64,000 nucleotides of DNA from Hericium rajendrae (lineage: Eukaryota; Basidiomycota; Agaricomycetes; Russulales; Hericiaceae): positions 124,001 through 188,000 of the forward strand of contig CM065891.1 of NCBI GenBank assembly GCA_033439255.1, written 5' to 3'. The notes under the pieces were generated by a model. That model had not been told where the DNA came from, made no database searches, and worked only from the letters and a program-made list of their open reading frames with translations. Both the position numbers and the translations under genes were made by a program. Below are positions 24,481-36,998 of this stretch, piece after piece; within the stretch, counting starts at the first letter, position 1, and each line of letters opens with the position of its first letter.

Positions 24481-27400
24481 ACGCGGGCTGAAGGGCCACG
24501 TCATTGTATATCCGCAACGGCCAGACATTATTGCCAACATATTGCCTCCGACTGTTGAGGATGCTGTGCATCCCATTTGCGTTCTCTTTGTCGGCTCTAA
24601 GAAACCAGACCGTGAGTGGCTGCTGGAAAAGGCGAAGCCACTTGCCGTCCGTCAGGACAAAGTACGGCGTGCTTTGCTATGGCTGAAAACACATAATCCG
24701 TTATATGAGTCTGTACAGATATCTGAATCACGTCTGGATGCACTACCAGAGAATGGATCCCTTCAGGCACACGTTGAGTATGTTGATGCATCTGTAGCGA
24801 GTGCGACACTTACATCGGGCTATGACCCATCGATGCCTATGATTACTGACGAGTTTCGCAGACTCGATGATGGAACATCTGCAGCTAGTCCTATCCCTTT
24901 CCAAAATGTAGTGATCACAGACATTGACGTGCATGCACCACCGCATGAACTACGAGCGGCTGCCGTGCACCATGCGAAGGATAAAGGCAATGGTTGCTTG
25001 CTCATTCCACACGAAAAGCAGCCGATTAATGAGTTTTTTGACCCGAAAATGTTCCCCATGATCTATCCGACACTCTTCCCATATGGCCTCGGTGGATTCG
25101 AAGACCGCTCTCGACAGACACCACTTTCACTGCGAAGACAAGCGAAGCACTTCTTCTCACTCACAGATCGGCGGTTCCAAGAACATCACTCCTTCCTGTT
25201 TACTGTATTCAATCTCATTCAACGCCGAGAATTTCTCTTGCATTCAAGCCTGAAAGTCAAGCGCTCATCTTTCGCTTCTGTTGCTGCTGACTTTGCAGCG
25301 ATATCACCTGTTGCAATGCATCGCGTAAGTGAGCGAGTCGCTCGATCGTGGAGACTATGAAACAGCTGACAACGATGAAGAGCGTGTCGTCCTCCGGCTG
25401 ATGAAAGAGGTCAAGCTCGTTACATCCCATGTCCCAGGCTCTTCGTCAGCACGACTGATGATGCGGAATGAGATACGTGCTCTCATGGTAGAGAAAGGGC
25501 AGCCTAACTTTTATCTGACCATAAACCCTGCAGACATATACAATCCTGTTGTAAAATTGCTGTCAGGTGCTGAGATTGATGTCGACGACCTTCTGCCTTC
25601 ACAGGTTCCCACATATTGGGAGCAGAGCATGCTCGTTGCTAAGAATCCAGCCTTGGCTGCCAAATTTTTCAACATATATATGAAAGCATTCATTTCAGCT
25701 CTACTGGGGTACGATCCGAAACATGAAGACACCGAAGGAGGCATTCTGGGCATCGTTCGTGCCTACTATGGCTGCATCGAAGCTCAGGGTCGTGGCACGC
25801 TGCATTGTCATATGCTTGTTTGGGTCGAAGGTGGCCTCAATCCTGACGCGTTGCGAGACAAAGCACGGAATGACACTGATTTCCAGCGGCGTCTTCTCCA
25901 TTTTCTTGATGATACCATCTCCAACGAAATTCCTGACAACATTGATGATGACAGATTGACTGTTCCTTCGGATTCACATCACCCATGCTCCGTCCGAGGC
26001 GTCGCGCTATCGCTTACTGCAGAACAGCTACAGAGAGCACAGGCACGCGACATACACAATCTTGTGAAACAGTGTCAGTTGCACCGACATACAAAAACAT
26101 GCTTCAAATACTGGAAAGGCGGCTCTGATCCAAAGGTATGTCGCTTCGATTTGGATGAAAGCAATCGCCAAACAAAATCCTATGTCGATGCCGAGACCGG
26201 TGACATCTGTCTCCGTTGCATGGATGGCCTTGTCAACAATTTCAACAAGACCATCATCGAAGCCATGCGTTGCAATATGGACATCAAATTTGTCGGCAGT
26301 GGTGCTTCTGCAAAGGCCATCATCTACTACATTACAGACTACATTACAAAATCACAGCTTAAGGCTCATGTTGCCTGGGCAGCTTTGGACCGTGCCGTTC
26401 AAAATCTGAAGCACCCTGAGCCCGATGATGATGATTACGCTGTCCATGCAAAACGCTTACTTCAAAAATGTGCATATGCAATGATCTCTGAGCAAGAATT
26501 GGCTGCACCGCAAGTGGCGTCGTATCTTATGGACTACGAGGATCACTTCACTGATAGCGAATTTCGCAATTTATATTGGACGTCATTCGAGCGATGGTTA
26601 GACAGTGTCGACCCTAACAGTGACGCTCAAAATGCACAGCAACTGCACGACGGAGACGATGATGGTGACAGTGACAATTCTGCAGTTGCTTACAATACTG
26701 AACCACTTGATAGCGATGTTACTGTGGATAGCAACCGAACAGGCCAGCTAATTGCACATGCTACACAGGTCGCCGATTATCAATTGCGAGGACAGGCCTT
26801 GCGTAATTTATCACTGTGGGATTTTGTTGCTCAGATACAACGGACTGTACGCTCGTCGCAGCCAATGACCGAGCACAGAGAACATGTTGCCGACATTGAT
26901 GTTGACCAAGAAGATCTTGACGATGACAATGAAGATATATCAGAAGAGGTGAACGAAGTGCATGGTATTGAGCAATATCCATCTATTCAAGATCTGTCAA
27001 CGGACACTGTTCGTCACATGCTTGACATGGATGCGCACCTTCGTCCTCGCTTTGATATGGACTCTCGACACTCCAACTCGAGCTCTCATATTCTCAAACT
27101 CATCCACCCCTTACGCCGTCGCATCCCTGTCACCATTGGACCAGCACTGCCTCGGTGCGATCGTGTAGAACACCGTACGTGCTACTGTCGTGTGATGCTA
27201 TTACTCTTCAAACCCTGGACCTCACTGTCTGACTTACGGTGCTCTTCCCAAACATGGGAGGATGCGTACGACAACTTCATGCAAACTTGTCCCGAACATC
27301 ATCGAAGATTCATGGAAAACATGCAGATTTTGCATGAAACTCGTGACTCTCGCAATGACCATTTTGCGGAACGTGCCACAACTCGCCACCAACATCGCGC

Positions 27401-29714
27401 CGCCCTTCGTGGAATTGGTCAGAATATGTTTCGCACAACTGCCATCAATGATGACATACCGTCTGACCTCGACAACGAGGAAGCCCTGTTGGCGCATCTG
27501 CAAGACTCTGCTGAAACACATAACTTCCATACCGGTGCAACTCAGGATGATGTCCTGCGCTGTCTTCACCATGCTAGCAATTATGGGATCTTCGACAGCC
27601 ACGCGGAACCATCTGAGCTGACAGATCAACATGCAGAACATGCGATGGGATATGAACTATCTCACGATGACACATTAGAGAAGATCTGGGAAAACACATA
27701 TCAGACAAGACGCGACCAATGGAAATTGAGAATCACAACACCGACACTCTCGACCACTGCAGCGAACGGGACACCCAGCAACAGCGAGCACCCACCGTCA
27801 ACCATATATCTCAGCTCACTAGACGGTGCTCTACCTGCTCTACCTACCATGTCCATGTTGCCTTCCGTACAAGACATGCCTTCCGAACATAGACCACCAC
27901 CCCTCGTCGACATCAGCGCGATTGCTGCGGAATTTACATTGAATGTGGAGCAAGAACGAGCATTCCGTATAATTGCCGAACGTTCCCTACACAACAACGC
28001 TGAGCCCCTGCGCATGTACCTTGGCGGAGCAGGAGGAACTGGAAAATCACGGGTTATTACCGCCTTGTGGGAATACTTTGTCCGCAAAAATGAGGCCCGC
28101 CGTCTGCGCCTTTGCGCGTACATGGGTATTGCCGCACGCAATATTGGAGGAATGACACTGCATGCCGCTCTTTGTCTGGGACAGTGTGGTCCTCAATCTG
28201 CAAATCGATCGCTGATGCGCCGTGATCTTGCAGCCATGTGGGATGGCGTCGACTTCTTGTTTGTTGATGAGGTTTCCATGGTGGGGTGCAACCTCATGCT
28301 CGACATCCATGATGCACTGGTCGATGCAAAAGGCAATACATCACCATTTGGTGGGATAAACATCATATTTGCAGGGGACTTTGCACAGCTCGCACCAGTT
28401 GGCCAGCGTAGCTTGTACCGTCACATCGGACATAGCGCAGGTGCGCGTGCATACGGTCAGGCCACCATCCACGGAAAGCTGCTCTGGTTAACTGTCTCAG
28501 TTGTTGTCATCCTGACTGTCCCGATGCGCCAGAGCGGATCGGCCAATGAGCGCTTTGTGGAACTATTGGGGCGTCTTCGCACTGGCGCTTGTACCCGAGA
28601 TGACTACGAGCTACTGCAGACCAGACTCATACAAAACGTCAACCCAAATTGGACTGACGGAGACTGGCGAGACGCACCATTTATCTTCACAAAGAATGCA
28701 GTTAAAGATGCCTTCAATGAACGTGCTGCAATTGACTTTGCGCACCGTACGAATCAAGCATTACATTGGTATTATGCTGTGGACAAACACGATGGTCAGC
28801 CTGTCACAAATCGCATGCTCGTTGAGCAGCTACAAACATACGATTCTGGCGTCACAAACCAACGGCTTGGAAAACTCCCACTGGCCATTGGCATGCCTGT
28901 TCTTATTGGCCAGAACAATGATGTCGCCGCTGGAATATGCAATGGCACATTGGGTACTGTCAAAAAGATCCGATACACTGTAGATGAAAAGGGCCTGCGC
29001 CATGCCACGTCATGCATCATCACCGTCAAGTCCACGGACTCAGAACCGCTACCGTTTCTAGCTCGTGGCAAGGCAGTCGTATACCAAGATGTGCAGAAGA
29101 TCAGTTTCGAGCATCAGTACTCCAAAAAAAAGTGCACACTACACCGCACTCAATTGCCTTTACTGCCTGCCTTTGCGATGACCGCACATAAGTCGCAGGG
29201 ACAAACTTTTGACCACATCGTCGCCGACCTTGCGTCAACAAAAGGAACAGAGACACCATATGTCATGCTGTCCCGTGTGCGCTCACTTGACGGACTCTTG
29301 ATCCTACGGCCCTTCGACTTCAAGAAAATATCGGTGCGACCGTCCGAGGACCGACGACGTGAAATTGCTCGTCTTGACTTGCTTCGCTTACAGACCATCA
29401 TTCACCATGGCACATCAACAGAAGCTGCTGATGCCAGTCGACATTTAGCATCTCGACAACAACTCGCATCGCAAATGCTCGTCACAGACTTACCACCTCA
29501 TCTTAGCCATGACGCCTGGCTCAATTGACTTGCTCGCATCCAAGAAGTGATGCTAGCCCCTTCTGTACACACCCTACCACCGACGACCATCCCGCCTCAA
29601 CGTCGTCGAAAACGCAAGGCCTCTGCACCTGACGTCGGTACCGTCACAAACAATACGACCCTTGGTGTACATGCACCAACGGCACAAGTATCCGTGCCGC
29701 ATAAACGTCGCTGA
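24481..29714 (+). pseudogene. Helitron Rep/helicase, C-terminal part
   Basis: The frame resumes at 24481. A one-base shift near 25347 leads into a 1,399-codon open frame ending in TGA at 29526-29528. In the same frame a basic tail (PPQRRRKRKAS) continues to 29714, so the TGA may be a nonsense mutation. The Rep (HUH) domain shows GRGTLHCHMLVW, with the His pair, and IIYYITDYITK, with the catalytic tyrosines, at about 25790-26350. The PIF1-type helicase has Walker A GGAGGTGKS, Walker B FLFVDEVSM, FAGDFAQLAPV, MTAHKSQGQTF and MLSRVRS (28020-29280). The core enzymatic motifs are intact. The element is dead because of the 5' breaks and the LTR insertion. Confidence 0.75.
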
Positions 29715-30338
29715 CAGCTCAAATAACTCAATGCAACTGCAGTCCTTGCTGCTCAAGAGGTGTCAATCCTCTACTACAGTACTAGGAGAACCACTTATTT
29801 TGTTTTCGAGCATAGTCAATGCAAGATGAGAGCAAAACGCTGTGTCAGTACATTGACCCTCTACCACGTCACACGTGTGCGCTTACACATGTTCCCACAT
29901 GCTTCCCCAGCTCACCCCTTCCTTCCTTCATGCTTTCCACTCACTACTCCCCGCCTGCGATCCCGACCGTCGTTCTCAACACTTCGCATCACACGCTGCC
30001 TGCCTTGTTTCGACAATGCTCTTGCACAGAGCCTATGTAAGCATGTTCCCATGGTCCGAAATCTACCACTGAATCTAATGTCGCCCATTTGCCTCCGTTC
30101 AAATTTTCACTACGACAAGTTGCCTCCGTTGATCTTACAAAGCATGCTGCACAAATGACTACCGTGCTCCCGCCTGCTCGTCTATGGCGCATGGACCACC
30201 GGTGGCCACCACCGACCTATAAAAGCCACGGCACTCTGTGAGTCTTTACCACAATGTTTCCCCTTCTTCTTGCTTACACACGTTCTTCAGTCCATCCCTT
30301 CTTCCCAGCCACTCTCCTCCGCCACGCCATTTACAACC
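29715..30338 (+). promoter_or_regulatory. Helitron 3' flank and promoter of the next host gene
   Basis: No gene lies in the first 450 bp. A TATA box (CTATAAAAG, 30217-30225) stands about 115 bp before the ATG at 30339. A weak 5-bp hairpin followed by CTAG near 29757-29789 was considered as the Helitron end and not accepted. Confidence 0.45.
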
Positions 30339-31120
30339 ATGACACCTTCAATCCCGCTCTCGCCCTCTTTGCAGCGCACGTACGATGCCATCCTACAGCA
30401 GATGGGTGCTAGCGAGCACTTCATCGGTAATGATGAAAGTGTTCCACGCGACCGACTGTTCCCCCATGCGATGAACTCCTGGAGCAACCATCGTGTCTTG
30501 TATGTCTACGAGCCCAGCCATGATCCGGGCGAGCGCCCGACAGAACGAGAGTACTACGGCTATGTCGTTGGTAGGACCGGCTCCTTCGAAGATGGTCAAC
30601 GTGTCGGTGCTGCCGGTGCCACTCAACCAAACGTCACGGTATGTGCAGTGGCGAGCCTTCGTCCGCGATTCTCATCATCGCTAACTTGCCAACCGCAGAT
30701 CAATGACCAAAGCCATGTGAAGCAACACATCGTCCTTCTTCCTATCCACCCCGGGCATGACGATATGGATGACCTCGCTCACGATCAAGCCGTTGGCTTC
30801 CACGACCTCACAGTTGCACTTGCTGGCGGACAGAACCGTTACGACGATTTACAGCGCGATTCGAATGTCGTGAGTATTGCGCCGCATTCCACGTCATAGT
30901 CTCTCATTCACAAACTCCATCTCACAGCTCATGCGCCTTCTCACAAACGACAACGCCGCATTGTACAAACACGGCAATGTCGCCATTGCGCCCTTCAAGA
31001 TCGTGACAGAGGACTTGTACACGGTATGTACTAATCACGTTTCTATCCGTCTGCTCCGCAACTCACATCCTGACATTACAGGTCACATCTAAAAATGTCG
31101 CCAAGAAGCAGACGACAGCT

Positions 31121-31128
31121 GCTCCGAC
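31121..31128. repeat. Left 8-bp target site duplication
   Basis: GCTCCGAC, exact match to 36659-36666. It shares five of eight positions with the Drosophila P-element target consensus GGCCAGAC. Confidence 0.85.
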
Positions 31129-31169
31129 CAAGGGGCGTCCGCGATCAGAATTCACTAAAATGACTACCC
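31129..31169. repeat. Left 41-bp terminal inverted repeat
   Basis: Perfect inverted match to 36618-36658. A further short word, AGGACCCC, occurs just inside both repeats (about 7 bp and 20 bp in). Confidence 0.85.
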
Positions 31170-31434
31170 TCAAGCGCAGGACCCCATAAGACTGCTACCA
31201 TGACTATAAATGGAAAGGTGTCATAGTCAGTGACGTAAAAATTCCTCGAGCGTTAGAGTCGTCGTCGAAATACGAAGTATCTGTACCATAATTACACTGC
31301 GCAGAATAATGATTAGTTGCTTAAAAAAGGGATATATGGAATGAGGTATAAATGTCGAGAACTATAGTGCAAGGATTAAGTATGGTCCGTCGTCGTGAGG
31401 CTTTTAGCTTTAGGAGAAAAGTAGGGTATGGAAA

Positions 31435-34400
31435 TTACTTCGACTTCGGCCGCTTTGAGGTACTAGGAGCATTGGAGTTCTTGCGGGGATGAGATGGAGC
31501 CTTGCGCTTCGAAGGAGCGACAGGTGGCGCCGGCGTCGTTTGGCATCCCGTGAACGGAAAGACGACGGAGATATCACTGAGCGGGACTGTGAAGATTTGA
31601 TCCTTCACGATCCTGGAGAACTCCTCGCTCGATAGGATGAGCTTTGCATTGAGATCGTGGTCGAGGCCTTGTGGGGCACGCTTGAGAGGGTCCCAGTGGT
31701 GGGGATGGTTCGTTCGAATATGGTCATACATTGCGTACTTCCAAAAGGTCGGGGTTAGCTTCGAGAGCAGATCAGGACCGCAGAGTGAGCACGAAACTGG
31801 CACATTTGTTGATGCCGTTCGTTCAGATGATACCAGAGCCATGTTGTACTTGAAAGGATGCTGACGAGGACAGTTTGTGATGGTCTGAAAAGACTTGGAA
31901 GTTGTCTTCTTCAACGCGATACTGCAGCCACTTCGACCACAGAACCCGCACGCCACGCTAGGAACAACCTGTGAACAATGAGGCCATGAGGATGTGCAGA
32001 TAGTATAGAAATAAAACACGCACCTGCTCTCTTAAACCGGGCTCAATGATCCCTACGAGTGCACGTAGTATGTGAATTCCGACGTGCGCGCGAGCTCGGT
32101 CTTGTGCAATCAGTACGCCGCACTGATAGCAAGCAACCTTGCTAGTATCTGAACTGTTTCGCTCCGTGAGGATTTGAGTAGCACTACTAACGAGGAAGCA
32201 TCGAGAGCCTTTTATATCGAGAACATCACTTTCAGTACGAAGTAGGAATCGGAGAGAGTAGGATGTACGCACCTTCACTGTCCCGATACGGTAAAGCATC
32301 GCTGTCGCCATACTTTGTCAGCTTCGTTAACAATTCTGTGGGATCTGTAGCGGCATAGAGCATGTCGACAAGCTCTACATAATCATCGTGATTTACAGCC
32401 CATGTACGATCGACTTGCTTTGCATCCAGGGTACCTCTTGCTTCAGCAGGAAGGGCTGAGGTGGGCTGAGATTCGGCGGTGATGGGATAGAGAAGATCGC
32501 CCGTGATACGAACCAGATGATCTTTACGAGAGGTCGTCTCTTGAGCTTGGGAGGAGGCTGCTAAAGCGGATGCCGGTGAAACATTTGCGAAGTTACCTGT
32601 CCAGGCCCATTTGCGTGACCATGTCAGTGGCGCAGCCAGCTCGCTCGCTGAATCAAAAACGGCCGATGACGAAGGGAGTTCTGAATCTGCAATAAGAACT
32701 TCCCTCATAGTGAGGACCTGTGCTGTAAGCTGAATGTCTGATCCAGACGCTTGACCGAGATCTTCGAAATCAATCTTCGTAAGTCGACTCCCCTTTCGGT
32801 CAATTGTGCTGACTTTGACGAGGACCACGGCAACTGAATCCTGTAGATGTATAGGGCAGATTGCTAGGTCGCCTGTGAGGAAGGCCTTCTTGCCGCAGAA
32901 GCTATCGTCGCTAGGGTCAAATTTTTGCCAGTCCTTAGAATAGCAGCGCACTCGAAGCAAGCGATCGACGGACAATCTTGAGTAGTCTGAGTGAAAGAGG
33001 GAGCTTAGAATGGATGCTTTATGGAGAGATTTTTTTTTCCCTGTATCCAGAGTACACTCAATCCAATCACGGTTCTCCGATTGTGAGCTCGATACCACGC
33101 CCTGAGAGTCAGGCTCGCCCAGCAAGTCATCGAGCTCAATGCTACCAGGAGAATGAGCTTCTTCGGCTTCCAGATGTGTTGCTGTGGGTTCTGGGTTCTC
33201 TGCTATCAGAGAGCGATCAGGCTCCGAGCTGGAAACGCCGGGATATGTATTGCTTCCGAATGGACACATGAAATCAACTCCAGCAGTTGAGAGTGTTGTC
33301 GCAAAATCGAAGTGAATGCCATGCGCGTGCAGGTAGTTTGACGCGTCGATTCTTCCCGAATTCCAGACCGTAGTCAAGTAGACATTTTGAACAACGAGAT
33401 CGCCCTTGAAGTATGTCGGGTTCACATGATCCACCCCGTCACTTCCCGAATATGAAGTTCTCCGATGGCCACGATTCCAATCTGGGTGACGACTGTAGAT
33501 TGCAATGCAGTCCGCAGATGCTGAAAGCCGGTCACAGAGCTGCAGGGTATCACAGTTACAATCATGGCACATCGTCCGTACTTCGCAAAAGATCTCTTCG
33601 AGACGATCTGAGCCGAGCTGATAAAGATAAAATGGGTTTGTCGGATTGAGGAGAGATTGCCGTGCGACACATATGAATGCTGCTTTCACGAGGGCTTGTG
33701 TGTCACTATATAATTGGCCAGTCATGAAAGACGACTTATGTCGGGAGAAGAGGGCGAAGCACATATGAGCATATGCAGACAAGGATCGCAGCTGGTCCGA
33801 CAACGAAAATATCGGGTTGATGAACGCCTGAAGAAGCGATTTCCACAGCTTTGCAATGACGTTGATAGCGCACATGTCGGACTGGCCTGATGGATCGAGA
33901 GATGATGAATCCATATCTGCAAGTGTAGATAGCGCGGTAAGTAGACGGACTGCGCGCGGAACATTCTGGTGATCCTTCGGGTCAATTAATGCTGCGACGC
34001 TCTGTTCATTCTGACCAGGAAGGCGAGAAAGATGCCTTTCTAGCGTGTTCCGATTGACAATCGTATCGTTAATAGCATGCCATCCTTGCTGCGAAGTAAA
34101 GTAGCAGCCCCTATAAGCAGCCGAGCCAAAGTCAGTCTTTGCTTTACGGGGCCTGATAGGAAAGCAATATCGTACGCTTTAAGATATGCTTCGGGTCCGG
34201 GCACATCACAATTTCGTCTGCGCTGCAATTGAGATTCAAGCCCTCCAATGTTGATAGCAGGGAATATAATGGCTTGGCTCCTTGGAATCTACTGTCCATG
34301 AGGACTCGAAACATAGCACCTCTGAATGTCGCATCGCCATCTGTTGAAACGATCCAAAGTGGGCCTGGACCGTGTGCTTTCCATTGCTCGATTAGCAAGC

Positions 34401-36287
34401 GGACGACGACAGCAAAATCCTCTGATGTCTCTGACTTGCATGTGCCTGATGCCATGATGGGAATGGGCTCGTACCGCTCTTGTCCGAACGCGCCGACTGC
34501 GGCGACCATAGACTCCCGAGCATAATGGCATGACGGTTCAGCACCATGCACTGCTTCAACAATTTTGAGGATCGATTTTAGGTCCGTCATCGCAAGATCG
34601 AGTCCTTCACTGTGTTCACAACAAAAGCCGACAATCTGGTTCGTGGATTTCCACCATCGAGCACGCTGATTCAATGCTAGACCATCAATCATCAAGGCAA
34701 AACCACGCATCACGCTCTCGACAGGGACAGAGATAGCCCGAGTGCAGGAGATAATGTTTTGAGCAATTTCTGATGCTTTGGGGCGTGACGAGCATGGGAT
34801 GATGGTGGGTGATAACATGCGATTTTGGACCGTAGTGGCCGAAGGTAAGCCAAAGGCCTTAGAGAGCGCAAACAAGCCCTTTCGGTCGGAAAGATGTCGA
34901 AGGAGCCGTGCAAGATCAAAGTCAAATTCGTCGAACCCGCGGACCTCGTAAACGCCCTCGACTGCCCGTTCAATGCGGGACAGGATGGCGCGGGGACTCA
35001 TTCCCTCTTTGAGCGCAAGGTTGAGTAGTTGACGAACACGCTTCACATCTTTCGTCGCAATCGCCATCATCAATGTAGTCATCGATGCGAACGATCAGGC
35101 GATGGACTCTAAGAGCCTGGTTATTAGCCTAGGAAAACCGGTGAGTTCTATAATTTGTTATGACAGAAAGTGGCCTAACCTGTATTTTCAACCGGGCAAT
35201 CTCCTCTGCTTTCTGGTCCAGCTTTGCGACGAGTTGAGCATGGGTGAGCCATTTATATGGCCAATGTCCTGTTTCCGTGGCTTGCGCTCGCAGGTCAGCC
35301 AGATGAATCGCCCGTGGAGCCTGGAGAAGTCGGCAGGCATGGCAAGCATTTAATTGGTCCTTCCACCGCGCACAGCGATCCGATCTTATCCATATGCAGA
35401 TACCTCCACCGTCACTGCTCCTGAAACCAGCCAGGCAGAATCCGAGGGTTCCATCGTGATTTTCGAAGATCTGCCATGGGAATGTTGTGAAGACTGACCC
35501 TGCACGCCATTCGAGCGGGACGCCATCACAGACGTCGTCTACCCTGTCCGAGCCACTCACTTCGCTTCGTCTCAGACTCTACCCCATCATCTTCATCTCC
35601 GGATAGGTAAGGCTTGTTGCCAATTTGGACCGGCACAGATGTTGACCTCCTTGGAATACGAGGTGGATGAAGCAAAATGCTATCTGCAGCAGATGAAAGA
35701 CCTTGAACTTGGAGAGAGCTAGTGAAGCTTCCTTCTGACAGAGCTCGAACTGAGGGCAGGAAGCGCTGTGGAGTCGGTGGAATCATTCTGATGACCGGAA
35801 GTGAGTGCTCTTGCTCGCTGCTGGCCATCGTTGTCGACGCTGACATCTGCTGTTGCTTCCCTAGCTTCCTCTGCTGCGCCTTGCATTTCTTGCTGTCGCG
35901 ATGCAAGGTGAGCGCGTGCCTTGAATGCTGCGTTATATTGATAGTGACCCCACATAGATCACATGGAGTAGGAATGAAGGCTGTCGCACTCCTCGCCGTT
36001 GCCGGTGAGGTCGAGATGTGGAGTGATCCCGGGTGTGCGTTCTCAGCGGCGCTGCGTGGCTCAGATGTCCGTTCTACCAGCTGAACGCGTACGAATCGGA
36101 ACCTGTCCTGCGGACTGAAGTCTGGGTCATAGAACTCAACCTCCTGAAAGTCTGTATCATCGTCAGTACTGCTTTCCGAGCCACTATCCGCGTCGAAAGA
36201 GTCGTTTACGATATCAATAGAATCTGAGCCTGGAGAAGAACGAAAACAGAGTATGATAGGGCTGCAGTGATCACTGGGTACGTTCAT
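31435..36287 (-). pseudogene. Transposase of the P-like element, several one-base frameshifts
   Basis: The order from the 5' end is: acidic N-terminus and a C2H2-type finger (PCDLCGVTI...HALTLH, about 35890-35960); a second block (35181-35560) with Cys/His; then helical region and core (34144-35098) with LMIDGLALNQRARW, IVSTDGDATFRGAMF and CPDPKHILKR; then VNRNTLERHL and DPKDHQNVPRAVRLL (33980-34110); then GSDRLEEIFCEVRTM (about 33590-33635); and C-terminal zinc fingers (CYQCGVLI, CGFCGRSGC, CSLCGPDLL). The last intron is 31969-32023. The DG, DPKH and DRLE positions parallel the catalytic D, D and E of P-element/THAP9 transposases. Frame breaks near 35555, 35072, 34155 and possibly 32250 mean this copy is probably inactive. 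The protein family itself is abundant in mushrooms as hypothetical proteins. Confidence 0.55.
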
Positions 36288-36617
36288 CTATACGCTGAAT
36301 CCCGTGGCGCAAGAGTTTCGCAGTGTCGACGCGGTCTGTTGAATAGTGCGACGTGATATTGAGTACGGGCGCATACACGCGCCGCGCCGTAGCACTGGAT
36401 ATTGGAATGATATGCGAATGGTTTCAAAACGGTGGCAGCACAAATCTTGAAAATATTCATATGTACTCTACACATCAAGTAGATTAGGATAGACATGGAA
36501 TTGCACCACTTTGTAAGAGCGAGAACGAGTCTCCGAGAGCGATTCACTAAGCAAGGCAAGGATAGTGCAGATTGTGGCGTTAGCGTCCGGGGTCCTCGAT
36601 TTTCATGTCATACCACC

Positions 36618-36658
36618 GGGTAGTCATTTTAGTGAATTCTGATCGCGGACGCCCCTTG
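36618..36658. repeat. Right 41-bp terminal inverted repeat
   Basis: Perfect inverted match to 31129-31169, ending CGCCCCTTG at 36658. Confidence 0.85.
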
Positions 36659-36666
36659 GCTCCGAC
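36659..36666. repeat. Right 8-bp target site duplication
   Basis: GCTCCGAC, followed directly by the continuing host exon. Confidence 0.85.
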
Positions 36667-36998
36667 ACGCACCAACCGCAAGCGCAAGGCCGATGACGAT
36701 CTCGACTCGACACGCAACGCCGAGGCCGGACCTTCCCACGCAAGCTCATCCACCTCTTCCACGAACGACGACTCCTCTCCAGCATCTCCCGCTGCCGACA
36801 ACATCCCAATGAGCACGATCAATATGCCCGGTCCTGACGGTATGCGCTCTCCTCGCTCCCCTTGCATGTCGTACTCACTATCCCTCCACAGATATTGAAC
36901 TGGACGACGCGCGCGTCGCGGTGCTGGAATCCCGAAGTCGAAGTCGAACGCCCTGCGCCATCCTCCGTGGCGAAGGGCAAGAAGAAGCGCACCTATTA

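Follow-up and report, generated by a model that had tools for sequence, protein, structure and literature searches.

The element and its copies in the genome

In the stretch of 64,000 bp analyzed here (hereafter the window), originating from Hericium rajendrae (contig CM065891.1, positions 124,001 to 188,000), an element of 5,530 bp occupies positions 31129 to 36658. It is bounded by terminal inverted repeats of 41 bp, which are perfect at both ends (42 bp if one flanking C/G pair is included), and it is flanked on both sides by an exact 8-bp target duplication (GCTCCGAC). Between the repeats, several open frames on the minus strand (31435–36287) provide the coding potential for a transposase. 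The perfect 41-bp repeats starting with CA, the exact duplication, and the minus-strand transposase had already been described in an earlier note on this DNA, and all three were recovered in our analysis. As deduced from its sequence, the element is probably (probability of about 0.8) a cut-and-paste DNA transposon whose transposase features a ribonuclease H (RNase H) core of the P-element type, with an aspartate–aspartate–glutamate (DDE) active site, and represents a divergent branch of this type. That it belongs to a real cut-and-paste family generating 8-bp duplications is much more certain than the P-type affinity.

The 20-bp end sequence matched twice within the window (≤3 mismatches), compared to a mean of 0.01 matches in 100 shuffled sequences. 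The genome searched was the 46.8-Mb assembly containing the window (19 contigs). Searching it with the whole element revealed one copy on C6 (99–100% identical) and one on C18 (88%), each of them split by an insert, a further copy on C12 (roughly 70%), and short derivatives on C4, C13, and C7. An 18-base end pattern, allowing for at most one mismatch, was found 17 times in the genome, as opposed to a single match for the backward control. Distant relatives, showing 25–45% identity over the matched stretches, were identified on C12, C17, C14, C1, C11, and C4 in searches with two transposase segments.

Tabulation of the 8-mers flanking the copies, following a check proposed in the earlier note, yielded exact 8-bp duplications in seven out of the eight copies having both ends in hand: GCTCCGAC in the window, CTTTGGGC in the C6 copy, CCTGTTTG in the C18 copy, CACCAGGT in the C13 copy (769 bp), AGAAAGGC in the C7 copy (457 bp), and CAAGCATG and ATTTACTC in the sister-subfamily copies C1 and C14, respectively, the latter two being bounded by CAAGGGGGGCTCGGGATGTT and its complement. 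Duplications of any other length did not occur among these eight copies, one of which has no duplication. Three further loci (C4:1606k, C7:1938k, and C9:2621k) featuring one end and no recognized second end were left out of this count. The presumed preference for GC-rich targets was not confirmed, 30 of the 56 bases in the seven duplications being G or C at a window average of 0.52.

The short relatives L032 and L033 (769 and 457 bp) have CAAGGGGC ends in common, and their two ends differ from each other in subterminal sequence.

Proposed catalytic residues and layout of the transposase gene

Profile evidence for the P-element type was obtained from Pfam scans (24,736 models, E ≤ 10), in which PF21787 (TNP-like_RNaseH_N) was the sole model recovered for the open reading frames of the C18 copy (E 0.039) and the C6 copy (E 0.27), and PF21789 (TNP-like_RNaseH_C) the sole model for a piece of the relative C1:4148k (E 0.054), all of these matches being below the cut-off. 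Genome-wide, each model produced two matches (PF21787 at E ≤ 1, PF21789 at E ≤ 10), the second-ranked one being located in the window transposon family and in its coding frame in both cases. Position 32 of PF21787 corresponds to D230 of P, represented by a short fly P fragment, and to the aspartate of LMIDGLA, and position 9 of PF21789 corresponds to E531 of fly P and to the glutamate of DCLE.

The P signature comprises D230, D303, a [C/D](2)H motif at D339, and E531 (PMC8230255). Proposed equivalents of all four are present in the window copy (Table 1). The motifs DGDATFRG, DPKHILKR, and DRLEEIF, previously regarded as the catalytic positions, are real, and the first and the last of them hold the second aspartate (D2) and the glutamate (E) of the proposed triad. 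DPKH, on the other hand, represents the D(2)H motif and not a triad member, and the first aspartate (D1) is located upstream of all three.

A total of 13 loci were aligned from tblastn matches, leaving out a fragment of 115 amino acids (C4:597k). D1, D2, and E, as well as the two letters of the D(2)H motif, are present in 12 out of the 12 rows reaching each position. The distance between D2 and E amounts to 226–228 residues in five sister copies, compared to 228 in fly P, and to 219–250 residues in four window-type copies, two of which appear to read through an intron; values of 210 and 197 were obtained for two rows having gaps between the matched pieces. The stretch inserted between D2 and E, the presumed insertion domain, is similar in length to that of P.

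Furthermore, a second P-like family, L068 (C2:1127469–1128881, corresponding to L068:1435–2847), was the top genome-wide match of PF21787, which was also the best Pfam match in the scan of the L068 protein (E 0.026). It is represented by 19 genome matches, eleven of them near full length including L068 itself, and the ten relatives are 40–96% identical. Alignment of the window family with L068 by means of HHalign resulted in an E-value of 3.4e-4 over 250 columns with 21% identity (reversed profile 0.33), the CDG, DSKH, and EHVFG motifs of L068 being aligned with D2, D(2)H, and E of the window family. The aspartate of CDG and D303 of P both fall on position 124 of PF21787. L068 and fly P were aligned at an E-value of 0.029, a value given without a reversed control, with D2 and E in register.

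The transposase gene runs leftward and is probably intron-bearing; a relative on C11 consists of a single open frame of 965 amino acids. In comparison to the C6 copy, the window copy features indels of 1, 5, and 2 bp, being the shorter one each time. Since the C18 and C12 copies read as C6 does at the first two indels, the window represents the changed copy at these positions, and it is therefore probably unable to yield a full protein. Regarding substitutions, the window and C6 copies differ at 26 of 5,529 aligned bases, exclusively by transitions, and the window and C18 copies at 626 of 5,514 aligned bases, 540 of these being transitions. The sites of substitution between window and C18 lie in CpG in 256 cases in the window and in 32 cases in C18, which would fit a decay of the C18 copy by deamination of methylated cytosines.

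Table 1. Positions of the transposon, its transposase segments, and its insertion site in the window.
Feature	Position	Strand	Basis or remark
Left part of open frame seemingly interrupted by the element	31082–31120	+	flank joining
Left target-site duplication, 8 bp, GCTCCGAC	31121–31128	.	
Left terminal inverted repeat, 41 bp, starts CAAGGGGCG	31129–31169	+	
Last transposase segment, second C-x2-C...H-x4-H motif, ends at stop	31435–32031	-	open frame
C-terminal transposase segment, C-x2-C...H-x3-H	31958–32317	-	zf-C2HC_3, E 7.1e-5, 23.1 bits, below cut-off of 24
Transposase segment holding inserted region and proposed catalytic E	32232–34178	-	
Putative active-site glutamate (E) in DRLEEIF, corresponding to P E531	33597–33599	-	PF21789 match, C1:4148k relative
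Transposase segment holding D1, D2, and D(2)H	34144–35094	-	genome relatives 25–42% identical
D(2)H motif DPKH, part of the P signature, corresponding to P D339	34186–34197	-	
Putative active-site aspartate (D2) in TDGDAT, corresponding to P D303	34339–34341	-	alignment with L068, whose aspartate shares its PF21787 position with P D303
Putative active-site aspartate (D1) in LMIDGLA, corresponding to P D230	34684–34686	-	C18 copy, match to PF21787, both sides of equal length
Second transposase segment, not in the same frame as the N-terminal one in the window copy	35129–35578	-	open frame
N-terminal transposase segment, ATG at 36287	35526–36287	-	open frame
Candidate N-terminal zinc finger, C-x2-C...H-x5-C	35883–35963	-	identified by eye; unmatched by Pfam
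Right terminal inverted repeat, 41 bp, perfectly complementary to the left one	36618–36658	-	
Right target-site duplication, 8 bp, GCTCCGAC	36659–36666	.	
Right part of open frame seemingly interrupted by the element	36667–36866	+	flank joining

Probable affinity to P elements and competing classifications

Compared to the Drosophila P element (PDB 6P5A; PF21787, PF21788, and PF21789), the fungal element has in common the 8-bp duplications, ends starting with CA, the order D...D...D(2)H...E, and a nearly equal distance between D2 and E. It differs in that the fungal transposase has neither a THAP match nor a match to the guanosine triphosphate (GTP)-binding domain, that its core is flanked on both sides by zinc-finger-like motifs, that D1 and D2 are about 42 residues farther apart, and that its repeats are 41 bp long as opposed to 31 bp in P, the sequence similarity being only at the edge of detection.

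Several results weigh against the P-type affinity. In the proteins scanned, none of the curated family models of Pfam and NCBIfam passed the cut-off for the transposase, the NCBIfam scan revealing nothing relevant, and the Pfam scans of the window open reading frames, the C11 and C1 proteins, and the C12 copy did not recover a P model. The window open reading frames matched the unrelated models Caveolin (E 0.016) and Casein (E 0.027), evidently by chance. As these chance E-values are similar to or better than those of the P models, the case for P rests on the register of the residues and the agreement of two P-specific models, and not on score. Direct comparisons with fly P were likewise weak: HHalign yielded an E-value of 0.099 (reversed 0.46), with an alignment only around D(2)H, and the family core, used as a hidden Markov model (HMM), reached 8.8 bits, a value equalled by one of 1048 scored shuffles (2000 made). 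HMM segments around D1, around D2, and from D1 to D2 did not match fly P, and the segments around D(2)H and E aligned to the correct location in P, with scores equalled by 177 of 992 and 752 of 999 scored shuffles, respectively. The GTP-binding-domain model PF21788 had no match in the genome, and none in the 14 control genomes either. A single protein and a 10-row profile, used as queries in sequence searches against PDB, yielded no matches, nor did the THAP model (PF05485) in the proteins scanned; the THAP domain, which fly P carries at its N-terminus, is not regarded here as a defining feature of the catalytic core. In addition, D1 and D2 are separated by 115–123 residues in seven rows of the alignment, as opposed to 73 in fly P (135–144 in five further rows, where an unspliced intron is likely), and the copy C12:2208k, in which both ends are present, features no duplication.

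Many of these points would also be explained if the element represented a separate, unnamed DDE superfamily, having the RNase H core and the D(2)H motif in common with P and hAT elements and being a member of neither. The [C/D](2)H motif is not exclusive to P. The failure of all Pfam and NCBIfam models to pass the cut-off in the proteins scanned, the weak direct similarity to P, the missing GTP-binding-domain match, the different flanking motifs, and the longer D1–D2 spacing speak for such a superfamily. Nevertheless, different members of the family are matched by two P-specific Pfam models in which the catalytic residues line up, and those protein scans recovered no further transposase model, so that this explanation appears rather unlikely.

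A divergent hAT element, which we consider improbable, would account for the ends, as CAAGG fits the hAT end consensus YARNG, and possibly for the candidate N-terminal finger, which by its spacing we take to be BED-like. However, none of the seven duplications fits the hAT target consensus nTnnnnAn. The 8-bp length of the duplications is what hAT elements usually give (PMC12730594), yet a hAT model was not recovered in the protein scans, and the model of the C-terminal dimerization domain, PF05699, which has 43 matches in the genome, has none in the loci of the window transposon family; moreover, PMC3985635 describes P elements as alone in that clade in lacking the hAT domain. A hAT identity is thus disfavored by the genome-wide PF05699 search together with the protein scans.

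Kyakuja-Dileera-Zisupton (KDZ) elements are common in mushrooms. The assignment to KDZ has in its favor the many KDZ matches in this genome, whose transposon content, these matches included, suggests a mushroom as host, and the 8-bp duplications given by Zisupton (PMC12730594), but it is very improbable, being disfavored by the protein scans, which contained no KDZ match at E ≤ 10, and by the genome-wide PF18758 search, in which at least 178 matches were obtained (150 of 223 candidates scored) and, among the matches listed, none fell in window-family loci. The P-type affinity, as put forward in the earlier note, remains the best-supported reading, partly supported overall, with its GC-rich target and its triad assignment not upheld.

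The novelty claimed for the element has to be narrowed as well. Rust-fungus P elements, namely P-1_PSt, P-1_MLP, and P-2_MLP as well as the non-autonomous P-N1_MLP and P-N2_MLP, were reported in 2011, those of Melampsora with 8-bp duplications (PMC3164196), and the P type was therefore already known in Basidiomycota; a divergent branch, and not the first fungal occurrence of the type, is favored here. The likeness to the rust-fungus elements is one of description only, as is that to human THAP9, whose signature residues D304, D374, D414, and E613 correspond to those of P (PMC8230255). In a literature search by titles and abstract starts, no description of P-type elements from mushrooms was found; Repbase was outside this search, and an earlier description is possible. 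Relatives were not found in viral contigs, prokaryotic genome contigs, or phages.

Proposed mechanism, significance, and neighboring sequences

If the P-type affinity holds, the leftward, probably intron-bearing gene would give rise to a transposase recognizing the CAAGGGG-type inverted repeats, perhaps via its zinc-finger-like parts, which may thus bind the element ends. An active site formed by D1, D2, and E within the predicted RNase H fold would cut the element out, and the transposase would join it to the target at positions staggered by 8 bp, repair of which would leave the 8-bp duplication; short same-ended copies might be moved in trans. For fly P transposase, a GTP cofactor and a 17-nt staggered donor cleavage have been described (PMC7776569).

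Taken further, the data would point to a THAP-less P-type branch residing in mushrooms and missed by curated protein libraries, with a P-like core, zinc fingers on both sides, at least two families in one genome, and its own deletion derivatives, a tentative proposal whose chances we rate as slightly below even. P elements are textbook transposons, and human THAP9 carries a THAP domain. If the proposal is true, the catalytic machinery of P would predate its THAP-bearing animal form and be more modular than it. The use of GTP might then belong to one branch only. P transposase has been described as unique among its kind in GTP cofactor binding (PMC7776569). With a divergent fungal branch in which other modules flank the core, it could be asked at what point the THAP domain and the GTP-binding insertion were gained, and proteins missed by Pfam above the cut-off would receive a name.

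Regarding the insertion site, when the flanks are joined and a single copy of the duplication is retained, one of the three frames reads through the site without a stop for approximately 80 codons. This is consistent with an insertion into a host coding exon, although an open stretch of this length is not rare by chance. A neighboring open frame (30159–30899) had no Pfam match at E ≤ 0.1. Upstream of the element, an open frame of 1,399 amino acids (25329–29528) with matches to Helitron_like_N and PIF1 helicase represents an apparent Helitron.

Several copies of the transposon contain inserts of 2.7–2.9 kb featuring CATC...GATG ends and apparent 2-bp duplications, four of which were measured (L028:2230–5094, L029:5085–7787, L030 between 3234 and 6086, and C14:37265–40212) and one is represented by its start only (C17, from about 200028). 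One end of the insert yielded at least 40 scored matches, with 159 candidates in the genome. The idea of the inserts being special partners of this transposon family was dropped, as they belong to an abundant element with such ends and duplications. They look like non-autonomous PlavakaB-type elements, fitting the description in PMC12730594.

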